From Alphaproteobacteria bacterium (GTDB lineage Bacteria; Pseudomonadota; Alphaproteobacteria; UBA6615): a stretch of DNA of 64,000 bases. A program made the position numbers and the translations under genes. Shown here one piece after another: positions 19,165 to 25,174 of this stretch. The notes under the pieces were generated by a model. That model was not told the DNA's origin. It made no database searches and saw nothing but the letters and a program-made list of their open reading frames with translations. Each line of letters opens with the position of its first letter. The first letter of the stretch is position 1. The stretch covers positions 1 through 64,000 of the forward strand of contig JAJFIX010000038.1 in assembly GCA_021774575.1 (NCBI GenBank), written 5' to 3'.

Positions 19165-19596
19165 TTAGGAGACGACCATCGTTGAATCGCTGGCCAGACG
19201 GAGCGGGCCCAACGACATAAAACCGGTGATCATGAAATTAAAGTCATAGGTGACGCTGATCGTGACCGTGCTGCCCGATGCGTTATTGGGCGACCAGGCG
19301 ACGTTGATTGCGAGATCTTGGTCGGTAATGCCAATGGTCCGTTCGCGGACATAGGCAATGATGGCGTTCTCTGTTGCCGGGAAGGGATTGCTGGCGCCAC
19401 GCACAGCGGCATAGCGGGTGCCCTCGCGCACAATATGTTCCAGGGTTGTCCGGTACCACATCATTCGGCCCATATCGATCAACCCAATGGTTACCAGCAT
19501 TAATGCCGGCAGGACCAAGGCAAATTCGACCAATCCAGCGCCGCCTTCATCGCGGCGGAGGCGCGATAACAAGGATCGTTTGCGATCTGTTGGCAT
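19165..19596 (-). CDS. TadE-like pilus assembly protein
   Basis: A 143-residue member of the TadE family of pseudopilin-like proteins for Flp/Tad pili. Near the N-terminus it has GGAGLVEFALVLPALMLVTIGLIDMGRMM: the glycine/glutamate prepilin-like junction followed by one transmembrane helix, with a periplasmic C-terminal domain. I prefer ATG 19596 because AGGAG lies 7 bases upstream; an ATG at 19614 has poorer support. It is the last gene of a leftward run, directly after another TadE-like gene. In Tad systems these minor pilins help assemble the fibre, but no Tad motor genes are in this window. Confidence 0.82.
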   Translation of the reverse strand: MPTDRKRSLLSRLRRDEGGAGLVEFALVLPALMLVTIGLIDMGRMMWYRTTLEHIVREGTRYAAVRGASNPFPATENAIIAYVRERTIGITDQDLAINVAWSPNNASGSTVTISVTYDFNFMITGFMSLGPLRLASDSTMVVS

Positions 19597-19614
19597 GGCA
19601 TTTCTCCTGGTCAT

Positions 19615-20115
19615 TCAACGCACGCGCATTTCACTGCGCGTCGTAACCGGTAAGGACGGGTTGAAACCGGGATAGTGGAAAAAAAGATCAAGACTGTCTT
19701 CGACGGTGACGCGGACGAAAATCGGCACATAGCCGCCGTCGCTGCAGGTTCCGCCAATGGCAACTTCGACCGATGAGTCCGGGCACATGCCATATCTTTC
19801 TGCCGCAACATTGAGGGCATTGCCGGTGTCGTTGGCGTCGGTGCGCGCGGCCTGAATCATCCCGTCAATATCTGCTGCGGTGCCCTGGTTTTGGATGCCG
19901 AACTGGGTGCCGGCGCGTGCCGCGCTATGGGCGCGGGTGTGCAGCAGACCGTAGCGGCCAAAGTCGTACATACCGACGCCAAGGAAGACGAGTACCGAGA
20001 GGATAAGGGCAAATTCCAAAGACGCACTGCCGCGATGCTCGGCGCGCAGATCGTGGGCACAAAGTTGGGCCCGTCGCCCAAATTTCGCCATTATATCTCG
20101 GGTGCGCACAAACAT
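19615..20115 (-). CDS. TadE-like pilus assembly protein
   Basis: A 166-residue TadE-family protein. It has the motif HRGSASLEFALILSVLVFLG, with the conserved Glu in the first turn of the transmembrane helix, and an external domain with two cysteines (MCPDSS and GGTCSDGG). ATG 20115 is preceded by GGAG at 7 bases; a further ATG at 20139 would overlap the gene before it. It sits 4 bases after the TadG-like gene and directly before the next TadE-like gene, so the three are an operon. Confidence 0.82.
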   Translation of the reverse strand: MFVRTRDIMAKFGRRAQLCAHDLRAEHRGSASLEFALILSVLVFLGVGMYDFGRYGLLHTRAHSAARAGTQFGIQNQGTAADIDGMIQAARTDANDTGNALNVAAERYGMCPDSSVEVAIGGTCSDGGYVPIFVRVTVEDSLDLFFHYPGFNPSLPVTTRSEMRVR

Positions 20116-20119
20116 CGTC

Positions 20120-21424
20120 CTACTCCACCAAACTGACATGGTCCAAATTATTCAACCCGGTCAGCACATCTGAAAATCCGCCCAGAACTGAATTACCGAC
20201 AAAATCAATATGATCGGCGACAAGCATGGCATTGTCCGTGCCGCTGAGGTCTGAGCCACCGGCAAATTTAACCCCCTGGCTCGGCGCATATATAATGCCG
20301 TCCAGCGACATGTTTGATCCGCCAGCCAACTGGTGAGTGATGTCGTCGTCACCCTGGCGATCATGGTAGAATAGAATGCCTTCGTAGGGACCGCTGGTCG
20401 GAGCGCTTAGGTCAACCGTGGCGCCACCGGCAATTTTGAAATTATCGTTGGTCGCGTTTTCCTCGGTCATAAAAATGAAGACTTCGCTACCGGTAACTGT
20501 GCTCTGTCCTCCGATATCGAGACCAGTTCCATCGAAAATATATTCACCCGGTGCAAAATTAATTCGGCCGGTTCCGGTTGTTTTGATGAAATTTCCACAA
20601 TAGACACCCGGTGTAAGATTGATCGTCTCGCCGTTATTTGCATTTATGTTATGGGTTTCATCGCAACCTGCGACCGTGGGTTCAGGCAGTCCGGCCAATG
20701 GGTCGGGCATTACAGGCATGGACTCGGCCGGCACGTGATCGATGCAATCGCTGTCGTCGCCGTTGAATCCGCCAACGATCGCCGAGCCCGTCGCCGATAG
20801 GCAACTGTCGCCCGATTTCGTCATCGCTTCGGGGTCGTTCGAATTAACATAGAGACCACAATTTATGTCGACACTCGCTGTGCCGGAAATTTTAATGGCG
20901 CTTCGCATGGAGGGGTTTAGGGCATAAATGCAAGCGTCGCCGCCCCGAATACCGGCGACCGCGCGAGACCCAACTAAGACGGCATTGGGATGAAAAATTT
21001 GCCCGAGCCAAGATTGGGTTGTCTTGGTGTCGATTGCCTCGACATAACTGCGATTGTTGCGATAATTGCCCGAAACCGGGGGCCAATTTATGGTAATGGC
21101 ATGGCCGGAGCCGGTGTCGTAGCCGTTGCGATCTGCGTTGACCATCGCCGCGGCCCTCACCAGCTCTTGGGTCAGACCGCCCGCACTGCGTTGAACTTCG
21201 AGGGCGCCGCCGGTGGCCGCTGCGTCGACAATATTTTGGGACTGGCGTTTAAATGCGTACCAGGCGCTAACATCGATCGATAGGCCGGCAAAGCCGAGCA
21301 ACACGGGCATCAAAATGCCAGCATATATTAATACACCACCTTGCTCTCCCAGGCGCAAACGGCTGAGAATTTTTGCCGTCTGACGACGCAGATCGGCAAC
21401 CGTCCTGGTACCATATATATTCAT
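20120..21424 (-). CDS. TadG-like protein with cysteine-rich beta-helix-like C-terminal region
   Basis: A 434-residue protein with one N-terminal transmembrane segment (about residues 31-50, after LGEQGG) typical of TadG-like proteins, then a small extracellular domain. From about residue 163 a long Gly/Asn-rich region follows. Six cysteines (165, 189, 208, 227, 254, 276) are at positions shared with two paralogues in this window. Repeated short strands such as TGTGRINFAPGEYIFDG and LDGIIYAPSQGVKFAGG suggest a right-handed beta-helix. Its location is probably periplasmic or cell-surface with pili. The role of the C-terminal half is not established. Confidence 0.8.
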   Translation of the reverse strand: MNIYGTRTVADLRRQTAKILSRLRLGEQGGVLIYAGILMPVLLGFAGLSIDVSAWYAFKRQSQNIVDAAATGGALEVQRSAGGLTQELVRAAAMVNADRNGYDTGSGHAITINWPPVSGNYRNNRSYVEAIDTKTTQSWLGQIFHPNAVLVGSRAVAGIRGGDACIYALNPSMRSAIKISGTASVDINCGLYVNSNDPEAMTKSGDSCLSATGSAIVGGFNGDDSDCIDHVPAESMPVMPDPLAGLPEPTVAGCDETHNINANNGETINLTPGVYCGNFIKTTGTGRINFAPGEYIFDGTGLDIGGQSTVTGSEVFIFMTEENATNDNFKIAGGATVDLSAPTSGPYEGILFYHDRQGDDDITHQLAGGSNMSLDGIIYAPSQGVKFAGGSDLSGTDNAMLVADHIDFVGNSVLGGFSDVLTGLNNLDHVSLVE

Positions 21425-21451
21425 GAGAGTAAGTAAGCGCCCAAACCGGCT

Positions 21452-21481
21452 AAAAATCGGTTAAAACCGCCGATTTTTTTT
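21452..21481 (-). terminator. Hairpin between two TadG-like transcription units
   Basis: AAAAATCGG at 21452-21460 pairs with CCGATTTTT at 21470-21478 (nine pairs, nine-base loop). Read leftward it ends in a T-run and lies in the 103-base gap after the TadG-like gene at 21528-22955. The palindrome would also work on the plus strand. It probably separates two TadE/TadG transcripts. Confidence 0.55.
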
Positions 21482-21527
21482 CGCGACCGAACTGAGAGGG
21501 TATGAGGAGAGCGGTCGCAATCCGGTT

Positions 21528-22955
21528 TTACTGAACCAACCTAGCCGAAGATATGGGGCGAAGGTGGGGGTTATTGCCTGCACTGCCTGAAAGTGCGGTA
21601 TCTAGAATACCGGTATTGCCGATAAAGTCTACTGTGCCCGATATTATCATCAACCCATGGTCATTATCGGGACCCAAGACCGTTTCACCGAGAGCCACAT
21701 CCGACCCTCCGTTAAAACGAATTCCGGCGGATGGTGTGTAGATAATTCCGCTGAGATCCATCGTCGATCCCCCATTGAATTTATGTACCGATTGTGGACT
21801 GGCGCCGCGCGTTTGAAAGAAAAGCATGCCGATTAGGTCGTTGCTGATATCGGGATTGTCGGCAGCCTCCTGTTCTGTCGGCGCCCTTAACGTTACGTCG
21901 GAATGGCCGTTAATTTCAAAAATATCGTTTTTGTGGGTGCTCTCGAGAAAGAAAGTGACGCCGGCCCCGGTAACATCTGCTCCCGAATTGATATGGAATT
22001 TTCCGTCCTTGATATGATGTAGGCCGGGCTCGAATATCGCGGTTCCCTGAATCTGGACGTCGCCGCAATATACGCTGTTACCAGTGAAAACTGCTGTTTC
22101 GCCAGGGCGTACGTCGACATTTCTCTGACAAGCGGCCGTCGTCGCCGGTTCTTGTAGGCAGGTGTCCGGGTTGTTTTCGTCTTCGCATAATGGATCGGCG
22201 ACTTCGTGAGGTAGGTAGGTCAACTCAACCGGAGCTTCCCCAAGAGGATTGAGCAGGCAATTTCCTTCGATTGAGTCGATGGCTGAAACGCCGGTCGCCC
22301 ATAAGCATGAATTTCCACCTTGGTCCACCGGTGAGTTTGAAACGATGCTGCAGCCTAGGTGTACGTCTGCCGTGCCGCTGATTTTGATGCCCACTCTTTC
22401 TTCGGTATTCAGCGCGATGACGCAGCCGTCACCATTGCCGGTCTCGCCTAGGGCAGCAATTGCCTGCGCTGAGACGCCGATATTGGTCCGACCCAAAATG
22501 CCGGGAAACAGCAGTGCTAACGAATTCCCGTTTTCGTTTGAACGCCGGGTGCTGACCTGGACCGCATTATAGGTCGCGCCGCCAGGTAGTGAGCCGGCCA
22601 AATAAAAGGTACGGCGCGCGCCATAGGTGCCCGCGCCATCCCAGTGACCGATGAGAATGTCCTTGTTTTCCAACACGGTCCCGTTATCCATCGTGCCCAT
22701 ATTGGTCGTCGAGAAGGTTTGAGCCGCAGCCACTATCGCCGCAGTTTCGGCGCCTCTTAGTGCCGTGGCACCTTCGGGCATTTCAAGAAGTCCGGCCAAG
22801 GCCGCCGCGTCTGCGGTTGCCTGAAGGCGCGACCTCATGACAAACCCGTTACCGAGATCTACGGCAAGGGCGGCTATGGAAATGGACACGCCAAGGGTTA
22901 GGGCCGCGAGGATCGACATGCCGCCCCGATCGCAATGTATGAGCCTGCGATCCAA
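21528..22955 (-). CDS. TadG-like protein with cysteine-rich beta-helix-like C-terminal region
   Basis: A 475-residue TadG-like protein with a short N-terminus. The transmembrane segment begins at about residue 13 (GGMSILAALTLGVSISIAALAVDLG, split by family consensus near GG). The external region has the paralogue cysteine pattern (178, 202, 217, 233, 276, 297) plus an extra pair at 257 and 266. Strand-turn repeats include GTAIFEPGLHHIKDGKFHINSG and LSGIIYTPSAGIRFNGGSD. It starts 3 bases after the TadE-like gene at 22959-23387, so the pair is coupled. It ends in ISSARLVQ, similar to the other two paralogues. Confidence 0.8.
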   Translation of the reverse strand: MDRRLIHCDRGGMSILAALTLGVSISIAALAVDLGNGFVMRSRLQATADAAALAGLLEMPEGATALRGAETAAIVAAAQTFSTTNMGTMDNGTVLENKDILIGHWDGAGTYGARRTFYLAGSLPGGATYNAVQVSTRRSNENGNSLALLFPGILGRTNIGVSAQAIAALGETGNGDGCVIALNTEERVGIKISGTADVHLGCSIVSNSPVDQGGNSCLWATGVSAIDSIEGNCLLNPLGEAPVELTYLPHEVADPLCEDENNPDTCLQEPATTAACQRNVDVRPGETAVFTGNSVYCGDVQIQGTAIFEPGLHHIKDGKFHINSGADVTGAGVTFFLESTHKNDIFEINGHSDVTLRAPTEQEAADNPDISNDLIGMLFFQTRGASPQSVHKFNGGSTMDLSGIIYTPSAGIRFNGGSDVALGETVLGPDNDHGLMIISGTVDFIGNTGILDTALSGSAGNNPHLRPISSARLVQ

Positions 22956-22958
22956 CTT

Positions 22959-23387
22959 CTATTCCTGACGCATGATGACTTGGGCGGCCAATCTGCGCCC
23001 CTCCATCAATCCTAGAAAATCAATGATTGTCGCCTGATCCAACGGCGCAGATATCGATGCCACAACATTTTGACCGGCCCCGCTAGCTCCGTTGGGAACG
23101 ACCACATCAATGTCATAGGCAATGCCCCAATTAACCAGCGCATTTTCGGCAAACGCTTCGGCCTGGGCCTCGGTGAGTTCGCCAGTGGCGGCCCGCCGCG
23201 ACGCGTCACGGGCGACATTCACCATATTATTCTGGATGAACAAGGCGGCGCCCAGTTCCATGATCCCGGTCAAAATGAGGATAAAAATCGGCGCGACAAG
23301 AGCAAACTCGATCGCGATAGCGCCATCCTCGAATCGCGACCTGTTGTTTTGGAATAACTTCGGCACTGTAAAAATTCTTAATGCCAT
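22959..23387 (-). CDS. TadE-like pilus assembly protein
   Basis: A 142-residue TadE-family protein. The sequence GAIAIEFALVAPIFILILTGIMELG marks the pseudopilin-like N-terminal helix with the conserved Glu. The rest is a small periplasmic domain. A strong Shine-Dalgarno (GGGAGG, 6 bases before ATG) supports the start. It is the first gene after a 440-base AT-rich gap and is followed by a TadG-like gene at a 3-base interval. Expected role: minor component of a Flp/Tad-type pilus. Confidence 0.84.
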   Translation of the reverse strand: MALRIFTVPKLFQNNRSRFEDGAIAIEFALVAPIFILILTGIMELGAALFIQNNMVNVARDASRRAATGELTEAQAEAFAENALVNWGIAYDIDVVVPNGASGAGQNVVASISAPLDQATIIDFLGLMEGRRLAAQVIMRQE

Positions 23388-23827
23388 TTTTTGCCTCCCG
23401 GATTGGCTGACTGTTTTTTGCCAATATCAGCGTCTCGTATCAGTGTCTTGTTTCTCGACGATTTCATCGTCGTTGCCGTCGGTAACGCAAGAACCGGAAT
23501 TCAAAATACGGAGCTGTGAAAAAAACCAATTTCCGCCATATGCTCAATGCGGGCATAATTTCAACCCAAAAGAGCTACCAAAATTATATAGCTCGCTTAG
23601 CGGGATGGGTCAATCAGAAATTAAGACTTTGGTAATTAAATATTTGCCATTTGGTAATATTCGTTAATTTTTTACTAAAACTGTTAATAAATATTAACAA
23701 AAACTATGATCTAAAGGTGTATTTAGTTAAATTGTCTAATTGTTGTATTGTCTAGGGCTCGTGTGTTTCTGGAGATGAAAATATTTATTGTCATGTATTA
23801 GGTGGTGCGATTTGAATTACAAAACCT
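23388..23827 (-). promoter_or_regulatory. AT-rich promoter region of the TadE/TadG genes
   Basis: This 440-base gap is much more AT-rich than its surroundings, especially 23640-23760, and must drive the TadE/TadG genes to its left. It contains the inverted repeat GTTAATAAATATTAAC at 23683-23698. No gene, tRNA or other structured RNA is evident. The transition from coding GC to very low GC could also mark DNA-bending or silencing, but that is inference. Confidence 0.45.
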
Positions 23828-25174
23828 TCATTCAATAAGGCGTGCCGTTGAAATCAGCGCTGGGTTGGCGGCGGCCGGTGTGTTGTTAATTATTTCCACT
23901 TCGGTATTGCCGCCGAAATCAACGGTATCGGCGATGATCACCACGTGGTTGGCGAGGGCGGTGGATCCGCCGTTAAATTGTACCTGAGCGCCGGCGACAT
24001 AAATGATGCCGTCCAGTGCCGCCGTCGCGCCGCCGTTGAAAATATGCGTGTAATTGCCGACAAGGTCTCTGTCTTGGTAGATCAAGACACCGGCGAACAG
24101 GTCAGATTGATCCGCCGGTGCGGCCAATTGCACGTCGGCCTGACCATTGATATGGAACGTGTCGTTGGTGTGGCTGGTTTCATCAAAAAAGAAAATGACA
24201 TCGGTGCCGGTAACGGTGGCGTCGGCGTTTATGTGAGCGGCGCCACCATGCATAAAATAGAGGCCGGGCGCGAAATGAACCGTGCCACGTATCGTAATAT
24301 CATTGCAGAATGTGCCACTCGACAGGGTTCGACTTTCACCGGGCCCAATGCTGGTTTTGCCGGTTGTCGTGCAGCCGATAAATGACGGTTCGGGCAGGCC
24401 CGCTAACGGATCTTGAAATGGCGTGGCGTGGGTGATCGGGGTCGGATTGAGGCAGCCGCCATTATCCTCGCCAACCGTCTGTATTTTTGTTGCATTGAGG
24501 CAGCCGCTGCCGCTTTCAACAACCGATAATCGATTGTTTGAGTTCGAATAGACGCCGCAATTGAGGTTTACCTGAGCCGTTCCGTGAACCTTGACGGCGC
24601 TGGCTGCCGTTGGATTGAGGGCGTAGACGCAAGCGCTGCCCGACCCAACAGATGCCACCGCTCGTGCTGAAATATCGAACCCGGCATTCATGAAAATAGA
24701 GGAAAAGAACATTGGCGCCGACCGATAGACGATGATCTCGACAGCTTCCGGGTTACCGATACTGTCGCCTGATGTCGGCGGCCAGCGAATATCCATCACG
24801 TCACCGGCGCTACGATCAAACCCGTTTGCTGCCGCCCCTTGGTCCGCAGCTTCATCGATTTTTACCGAGAGGTTGGTGCGCCGAATTTCCGATGCAGCCG
24901 CGACTGCTGCCGCATCGGCGGCGTTCTGGGTCAGGCGCTTATTTGAATACCAATTGCCGACATCGACAGCGATCCCGGCAGAACCAAGCAGGATCGGCAT
25001 TAGAACGGCCGTGTAAACGAGGACGCCGCCTCGTTCATCTTGCCGCAGTTTCTTGATGAGATGGGTCAGCAGTCTAGGCGCAAGTGCCCAATTGCCACGT
25101 GATGCGCTGTACGTCCTGAACATACGCTTGAACTCACTGGTAAGAACTGTATCCAGCCCAAACCTTTGGGCCAT
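23828..25174 (-). CDS. TadG-like protein with cysteine-rich beta-helix-like C-terminal region
   Basis: A 448-residue TadG-like protein. Its transmembrane segment is at about 51-70 following QDERGG. The six paralogue cysteines are at 182, 206, 225, 241, 268 and 290. The C-terminal half has glycine/asparagine turns and short strands, for example GTVHFAPGLYFMHGG and LDGIIYVAGAQVQFNGGS. It is about as long as its neighbours and ends in ISTARLIE. The start is uncertain: ATG 25174 or ATG 25123, with no strong ribosome site at either. It lies in its own transcript, separated from the next gene by the AT-rich gap. Confidence 0.8.
   Translation of the reverse strand: MAQRFGLDTVLTSEFKRMFRTYSASRGNWALAPRLLTHLIKKLRQDERGGVLVYTAVLMPILLGSAGIAVDVGNWYSNKRLTQNAADAAAVAAASEIRRTNLSVKIDEAADQGAAANGFDRSAGDVMDIRWPPTSGDSIGNPEAVEIIVYRSAPMFFSSIFMNAGFDISARAVASVGSGSACVYALNPTAASAVKVHGTAQVNLNCGVYSNSNNRLSVVESGSGCLNATKIQTVGEDNGGCLNPTPITHATPFQDPLAGLPEPSFIGCTTTGKTSIGPGESRTLSSGTFCNDITIRGTVHFAPGLYFMHGGAAHINADATVTGTDVIFFFDETSHTNDTFHINGQADVQLAAPADQSDLFAGVLIYQDRDLVGNYTHIFNGGATAALDGIIYVAGAQVQFNGGSTALANHVVIIADTVDFGGNTEVEIINNTPAAANPALISTARLIE
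25157..25170. promoter_or_regulatory. Small palindrome at the TadG start region
   Basis: CCCAAACCTTTGGG has perfect six-base arms. It lies inside the first codons if the TadG-like gene starts at 25174, or in its leader if it starts at 25123. It may be an operator, or simply coding sequence. Confidence 0.2.

Follow-up and report, generated by a model that had tools for sequence, protein, structure and literature searches.

The locus considered here lies within a window of 64,000 nucleotides, a term that denotes the whole stretch of DNA analysed, and comprises minus-strand genes that encode, in this order, TadG3, TadE, TadG2, TadG1, a TadF-like protein and a further TadE. The genes running from the first TadE to the second overlap or are separated by no more than about 100 bases, and TadG3 is placed 440 bases upstream. 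The apparent start codon of TadG2 is a TTG at window position 22955, four bases from the end of the preceding TadE gene. A promoter and terminator scan returned counts within about one standard deviation of those of shuffled sequences. The features are the following:

23828..25174, minus strand: TadG3, 448 aa, with a leader, an N-terminal pilin helix (residues 50-99), a pilin-like sheet (126-176) and a predicted beta-helix (about 180-430)
23885..24637, minus strand: predicted beta-helix domain of TadG3, residues 180-430; nearest structures FfIBP 4nu2 and ComZ 6qvi
24305..24631, minus strand: six-cysteine segment of TadG3, Cys182-Cys290; proposed pairs 182-206, 225-241 and 268-290
22959..23387, minus strand: TadE-like minor pilin, 142 aa; lies immediately upstream of TadG2 and has Glu at +5
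21528..22955, minus strand: TadG2, 475 aa, TTG start; stalk of another TadG class (Tad_C, PF09977), predicted beta-helix that of its neighbours
21594..22433, minus strand: predicted beta-helix domain of TadG2, residues 175-454; cysteines 178-297 and an extra pair 257/266
20120..21424, minus strand: TadG1, 434 aa; a TadG with the matching six cysteines and DUF7305 over its C-terminal part
20165..20938, minus strand: predicted beta-helix domain of TadG1, placed by alignment with the other copies; ends approximate
19615..20139, minus strand: TadE/TadF-like minor pilin, 174 aa, Glu at +5; overlaps the end of TadG1
19165..19614, minus strand: TadE, 149 aa, Glu at +5; adjoins the TadF-like gene

The nature of the three larger proteins was derived from their domain make-up. 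The Tad domain (PF13400) scored above the Pfam cut-off in TadG1, TadG2 and TadG3, as well as in 56 of 57 homologues, and TadG2 additionally matched Tad_C (PF09977). The likeness to DUF7305 (PF23981) consists in TadG1 reaching the cut-off (27.6 bits against 27, over residues 253-406), and the difference in TadG2 falling below it (16.6 bits) and TadG3 giving no match; the family was matched by 16 of the 57 homologues. The Pfam search detected no vWA domain in the TadGs at E ≤ 1, and PF11999 (DUF3494) was likewise absent from them at E ≤ 1, from the 57 homologues at 0.01 and from the genome of origin at E ≤ 0.001. NCBIfam identities were considered and set aside, the search having yielded just weak TadE-like matches and a sub-cut-off match to 'rhombotarget A'. 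All three TadE/F-like neighbours in the window carry a Glu at position +5 after the Gly of the cleavage site, whereas the TadGs, like most of their homologues, present a hydrophobic residue instead. The pseudopilin GspK, which sits at the very tip, also lacks the Glu at +5 and offers an analogy for TadG. Judging from sequence, all three genes encode TadG-type minor pilins.

The genome of origin contains a single CpaF-type ATPase (one strong T2SSE match), and its Tad machine is encoded on contig C25, where TadD, TadC, TadB, CpaF, CpaE, CpaD, CpaC, CpaB and CpaA were named on the basis of sequence resemblance and gene order. TadE, TadF and TadG are absent from this locus within the stretch that was read. 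In two relatives, one of the same family (G007) and one of the same class (G026), the corresponding TadG adjoins TadE and TadF and is divergent from the Tad machine, and TadG1 groups with the TadG that lies next to the machine in G007 and G013. Given the lack of TadE, TadF and TadG at C25 and their linkage in relatives, the window would represent a detached set of tip genes serving one machine. A comparable unlinked minor-pilin cluster exists in Bradyrhizobium, where it is required for adhesion to roots, mutants attaching poorly (PMC12918737). Elsewhere in the genome of origin, at G000:C16:170961-172181, there is a fourth TadG, which has the matching six cysteines. Genes for Flp pilins are spread across five contigs (C25, C34 with two, C17, C31 and C8), with six matches, one of them below the cut-off. 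The two on C34 (L054, 6173-6457 and 8117-8383; G000:C34) are found near ORFs (L054:1-6105) that by eye resemble phage portal, terminase and primase genes, which may place these Flp genes within or next to a prophage.

The association with Tad machinery extends beyond this genome. Homologues at E ≤ 1e-20 were found in 48 of 385 alphaproteobacterial genomes, and CpaF was present in 46 of these 48 as opposed to 112 of the 337 genomes without a homologue (Fisher p ~1e-17, uncorrected for relatedness). Named homologues reach as far as Limnohabitans, Acidobacteria and Planctomycetota. TadE/F-like neighbours were detected at 26 of 65 named loci, and machine genes at 10 within the stretch covered; at the remaining 39 loci, some of them at contig ends, TadG had no detected TadE/F neighbours. 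Another expanded tip cluster (L114; G189:C7:27200-32900) carries three tandem TadG homologues with 10-12 exported cysteines.

The first-pass annotation, made on sequence alone, had proposed a beta-helix on a pilin-like anchor, and this proposal was supported by AlphaFold2 models of TadG3 (mean pLDDT 88.6, pTM 0.75) and TadG2 (mean pLDDT 81.5, pTM 0.78), which were compared with solved structures by means of VIA-align and Foldseek. Both models show a long N-terminal helix and a small sheet, followed by short regular strands, and the predicted fold beyond the stalk is indeed a beta-helix. As to the long alpha-helix that packs along the beta-helix in DUF3494 ice-binding proteins, the TadG3 model contains no helix between residues ~234 and 273. 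The closest solved structures were DUF3494 ice-binding proteins (Z 13.5-14.9), matched over nearly the whole beta-helix: 4nu2 aligned in VIA-align with TadG3 at Z 14.9 (188 residues, 3.2 Å) and with TadG2 at Z 13.5 (186 residues, 3.1 Å). They were followed by ComZ (6qvi), the sole solved pilin with this fold among the structural matches, with Z 12.7 for TadG3 (289 residues, 6.3 Å) and Z 12.5 for TadG2 (226 residues, 3.6 Å), and other beta-helices scored below both, at Z ~10 and less. The polysaccharide-binding adhesins SRRP and tapirin matched a portion of the helix (Z 9.3-10.3), but the best matches were the ice-binding proteins and the DNA-binding tip pilin ComZ; the surface adhesin or polymer-binding tip suggested by the first-pass annotation is a plausible candidate function. 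Foldseek E-values were weak (best 0.013).

A profile-profile comparison with DUF3494, in which the comparison sequences came from the phylum sample because the class sample gave no match above the cut-off, yielded a probability of 23.5 and a P of 0.0009, against a P of 0.19-0.23 in reversed controls, and matched the PG-Y region together with the subsequent strands, their order being preserved. This is suggestive of remote homology, short of proof. A search of PDB sequences with the single protein gave no match, the viral structure library contained nothing convincing, and the PDB profile search produced just EtpA, a large repetitive protein (E 0.011), along with chance matches. Towards the C-terminus, L446 is conserved in 61 of 66 homologues; the conserved C-terminal residues form a last short strand that may rejoin the pilin sheet, in the manner of an inserted domain.

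The cysteines reported by the first-pass annotation proved to be exactly placed, at residues 182/206/225/241/268/290 of TadG3, 165/189/208/227/254/276 of TadG1 and 178/202/217/233/276/297 of TadG2, and they do align between the three proteins. TadG2 has, beyond these six, Cys257/266 and a Cys8 in its leader, and thus exports eight cysteines. The repeated short strands described for the C-terminal halves fared less uniformly: GGS-like motifs recur 3-4 times, while LDGIIY and APG occur once per protein and are therefore common to the copies and not internal repeats.

Conservation in orthologues, whose lack the first-pass annotation had named as a refutation, was examined in 66 alphaproteobacterial homologues and in a wider set of 132, and the cysteines turned out to be conserved as pairs. 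Cysteines 1 and 2 are present in all 66 alphaproteobacterial proteins; in the wider set both occur in 122 and neither in 10, and no protein has the first or the second alone. For cysteines 5 and 6 the corresponding figures are 110 with both, 7 with the first alone, 1 with the second alone and 14 with neither, and for a C-terminal pair that is missing from the window copies they are 61, 5, 1 and 65. The 3-4 pair occupies alternative positions, 225/241 in 6-7 of the 132 and 232/250 in 40; among the aligned homologues, the 225/241 pair is special to this small clade, and pairs 1-2 and 5-6 are general. An even number of cysteines follows the membrane helix in 126 of the 132 proteins, and the pattern seen in the alignment is beyond chance. 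On a tree built without the cysteine columns, the two members of a proposed pair changed in the same direction, which control pairs did not, but the number of independent changes per pair stayed below six, too low for significance in this tree-corrected test. Since the spacing of 16-25 residues is about one coil of the beta-helix, the cysteines are most naturally read as forming disulfides from one coil to the next, and the paired gain and loss of cysteines fits such predicted bonds.

How a head of this kind might work can be appreciated from pilins already described. ComZ of Thermus thermophilus (6QVI) also combines a pilin-like stalk with a large beta-solenoid whose nearest solved relative is FfIBP 4NU2, as for the window TadGs, and the tip has been argued to be the one place in a pilus that can accommodate such a pilin (PMC6561018). 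It differs in being a competence-associated type IV pilin with PilA2 as partner and with shown DNA binding, whereas the window TadGs are Tad proteins (PF13400) encoded beside TadE/F and bear paired cysteines; the ComZ paper makes no mention of disulfides (PMC6561018). The KilN/TadG tips (PMC12075869) share with the window proteins a TadG that forms the backbone of a TadE-TadF-TadG tip, a modular C-terminal domain and predicted disulfides. In the Kil pilus the TadG head is outermost and several alternative tips occur in one cell (PMC12075869), although that head is made of two long alpha-helices and a large beta-scaffold, and not of a DUF3494-like beta-helix. Caulobacter crescentus CpaL (PMC12607857), likewise TadG-like, is a minor pilin whose exported head is large and which is predicted to lie at the tip. 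As for the DUF3494 ice-binding proteins (PF11999, FfIBP 4NU2), the fold is alike over 180-190 residues at ~3 Å, but the window TadGs lack a PF11999 match and are mounted on a pilin stalk, and ice binding is not implied. No description of a beta-helix head of this kind was found for Tad pili in open-access literature text.

The reading favoured here, to which we assign a probability of roughly 0.68, is that TadG, TadF and TadE form a pilus-tip complex, comparable to ComZ or the tips of Kil pili, that displays a disulfide-stapled beta-helix. It draws on sequence, domain make-up, the distribution of paired cysteines, the Tad association and the modelled fold of two copies. The points that tell against it are the 39 named loci at which TadG had no detected TadE/F neighbours, the weak Foldseek E-values and the small number of independent cysteine losses. 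In this model, the TadG-type minor pilins would sit at the end of the Tad (type IVc) pilus, with the pilin-like helix and sheet docked into the fibre and the beta-helix distal. The cysteines of successive coils would pair 1-2, 3-4 and 5-6, and this stapling would hold the helix in its fold outside the cell, also when force pulls on it. The single Tad machine would then have alternative tips, one made of TadG1 and the adjoining TadF- and TadE-like proteins, the other of TadG2 and the adjoining TadE. The beta-helix would act as the contact surface, and a role in adhesion or surface recognition is the likely one.

The notion that the copies bind different targets had been drawn from their divergence, and it found no support, because identity between the genome's copies is at least as high in the helix (~34-51% by segment) as in the stalk (23-48%), which leaves no excess divergence at the tip. 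Compared with TadG3 and the C16 copy, TadG2 shows 41-43% identity in the helix and just 25-29% in the stalk. In the helix tree TadG2 falls inside the window-family clade (100, quick tree), and in the stalk tree it goes with another TadG class (95/86). Forcing its stalk into the window family was disfavoured (AU p 0.012), a test weaker than it looks because the group was chosen after the first tree had been seen, and forcing its helix together with two stalk-mates in the helix tree gave p 0.06, not rejected at 0.05. TadG2 thus looks, from these alignments, like a stalk swap, with its neighbours' helix on a different pilin class. A TadE and TadG pair also exists on C16 (L038:9064-10972; G000:C16), in which the TadG has the TadG2 stalk class and no such beta-helix.

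Elsewhere, a TadG of genome G241 and the protein of the adjacent gene are 45% identical in the helix and 18% in the stalk, and two TadGs of a Brevundimonas MAG (L172:7941-9221 and L175:230-1474) have helices that are 82-100% identical in comparison windows and stalks mostly at 30-62%. The DNA of the latter helices is just 84% identical, and strong selection on the head therefore contributes besides any exchange. An alternative to exchange is that stalk and head evolve at unequal rates. It is accordingly proposed only tentatively, as something close to an even prospect, that Tad pili have exchangeable beta-helix heads, a cassette recombining between pilin stalks, often within clusters of tip genes. 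If so, TadG2, the G241 protein and the Brevundimonas pair would be three cases of exchange.

The Brevundimonas pair, in which the helix is kept while the stalks differ, indicates a tip under strong constraint, and this, together with the fact that minor pilins in general prime assembly, lends some weight to the idea that the beta-helix has no ligand of its own and is a structural cap priming pilus assembly or, as proposed for CpaL, a device for signalling surface contact. We regard this as rather unlikely, given that CpaL has as its head a metal-binding vWA domain, for which the TadGs gave no match, and that a pure cap would hardly call for four copies whose helices differ. Less probable still is that the beta-helix is a DNA receptor and the pilus a device for DNA uptake and not for adhesion, for which the precedent is ComZ, a DNA-binding protein (PMC6561018) and the one pilin of this fold among the solved structures matched. 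The DNA-binding lysines of ComZ, however, lie between its domains (PMC6561018), and the window cluster is one of Tad minor pilins with TadE/TadF-like neighbours, alongside which neither competence genes nor a ComZ-type locus with a PilA2-like partner were recognised. A polysaccharide-processing lyase or hydrolase mounted on the pilus is highly improbable, since the pectate lyases and tailspikes that match the helix (Z 7.4-9.2) do so partially, from about residue 265 and near the beta-helix background, and the non-enzymatic ComZ and ice-binding proteins match far better and over the whole domain.

Under the preferred reading, that of a pilus-tip complex with a stapled beta-helix, the head common to ComZ and the ice-binding proteins supplies a concrete structural class for TadG tips that previously carried only domains of unknown function. 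Should the head in addition be a cassette, a single machine could present either the same head on varied stalks or a range of heads. Tad pili occur widely, and only recently have their tips come to be understood as parts that can be exchanged; assignment to a beta-helix class opens to direct test the ligand of the tip, what the disulfides do under retraction force and the exchange between head and stalk.
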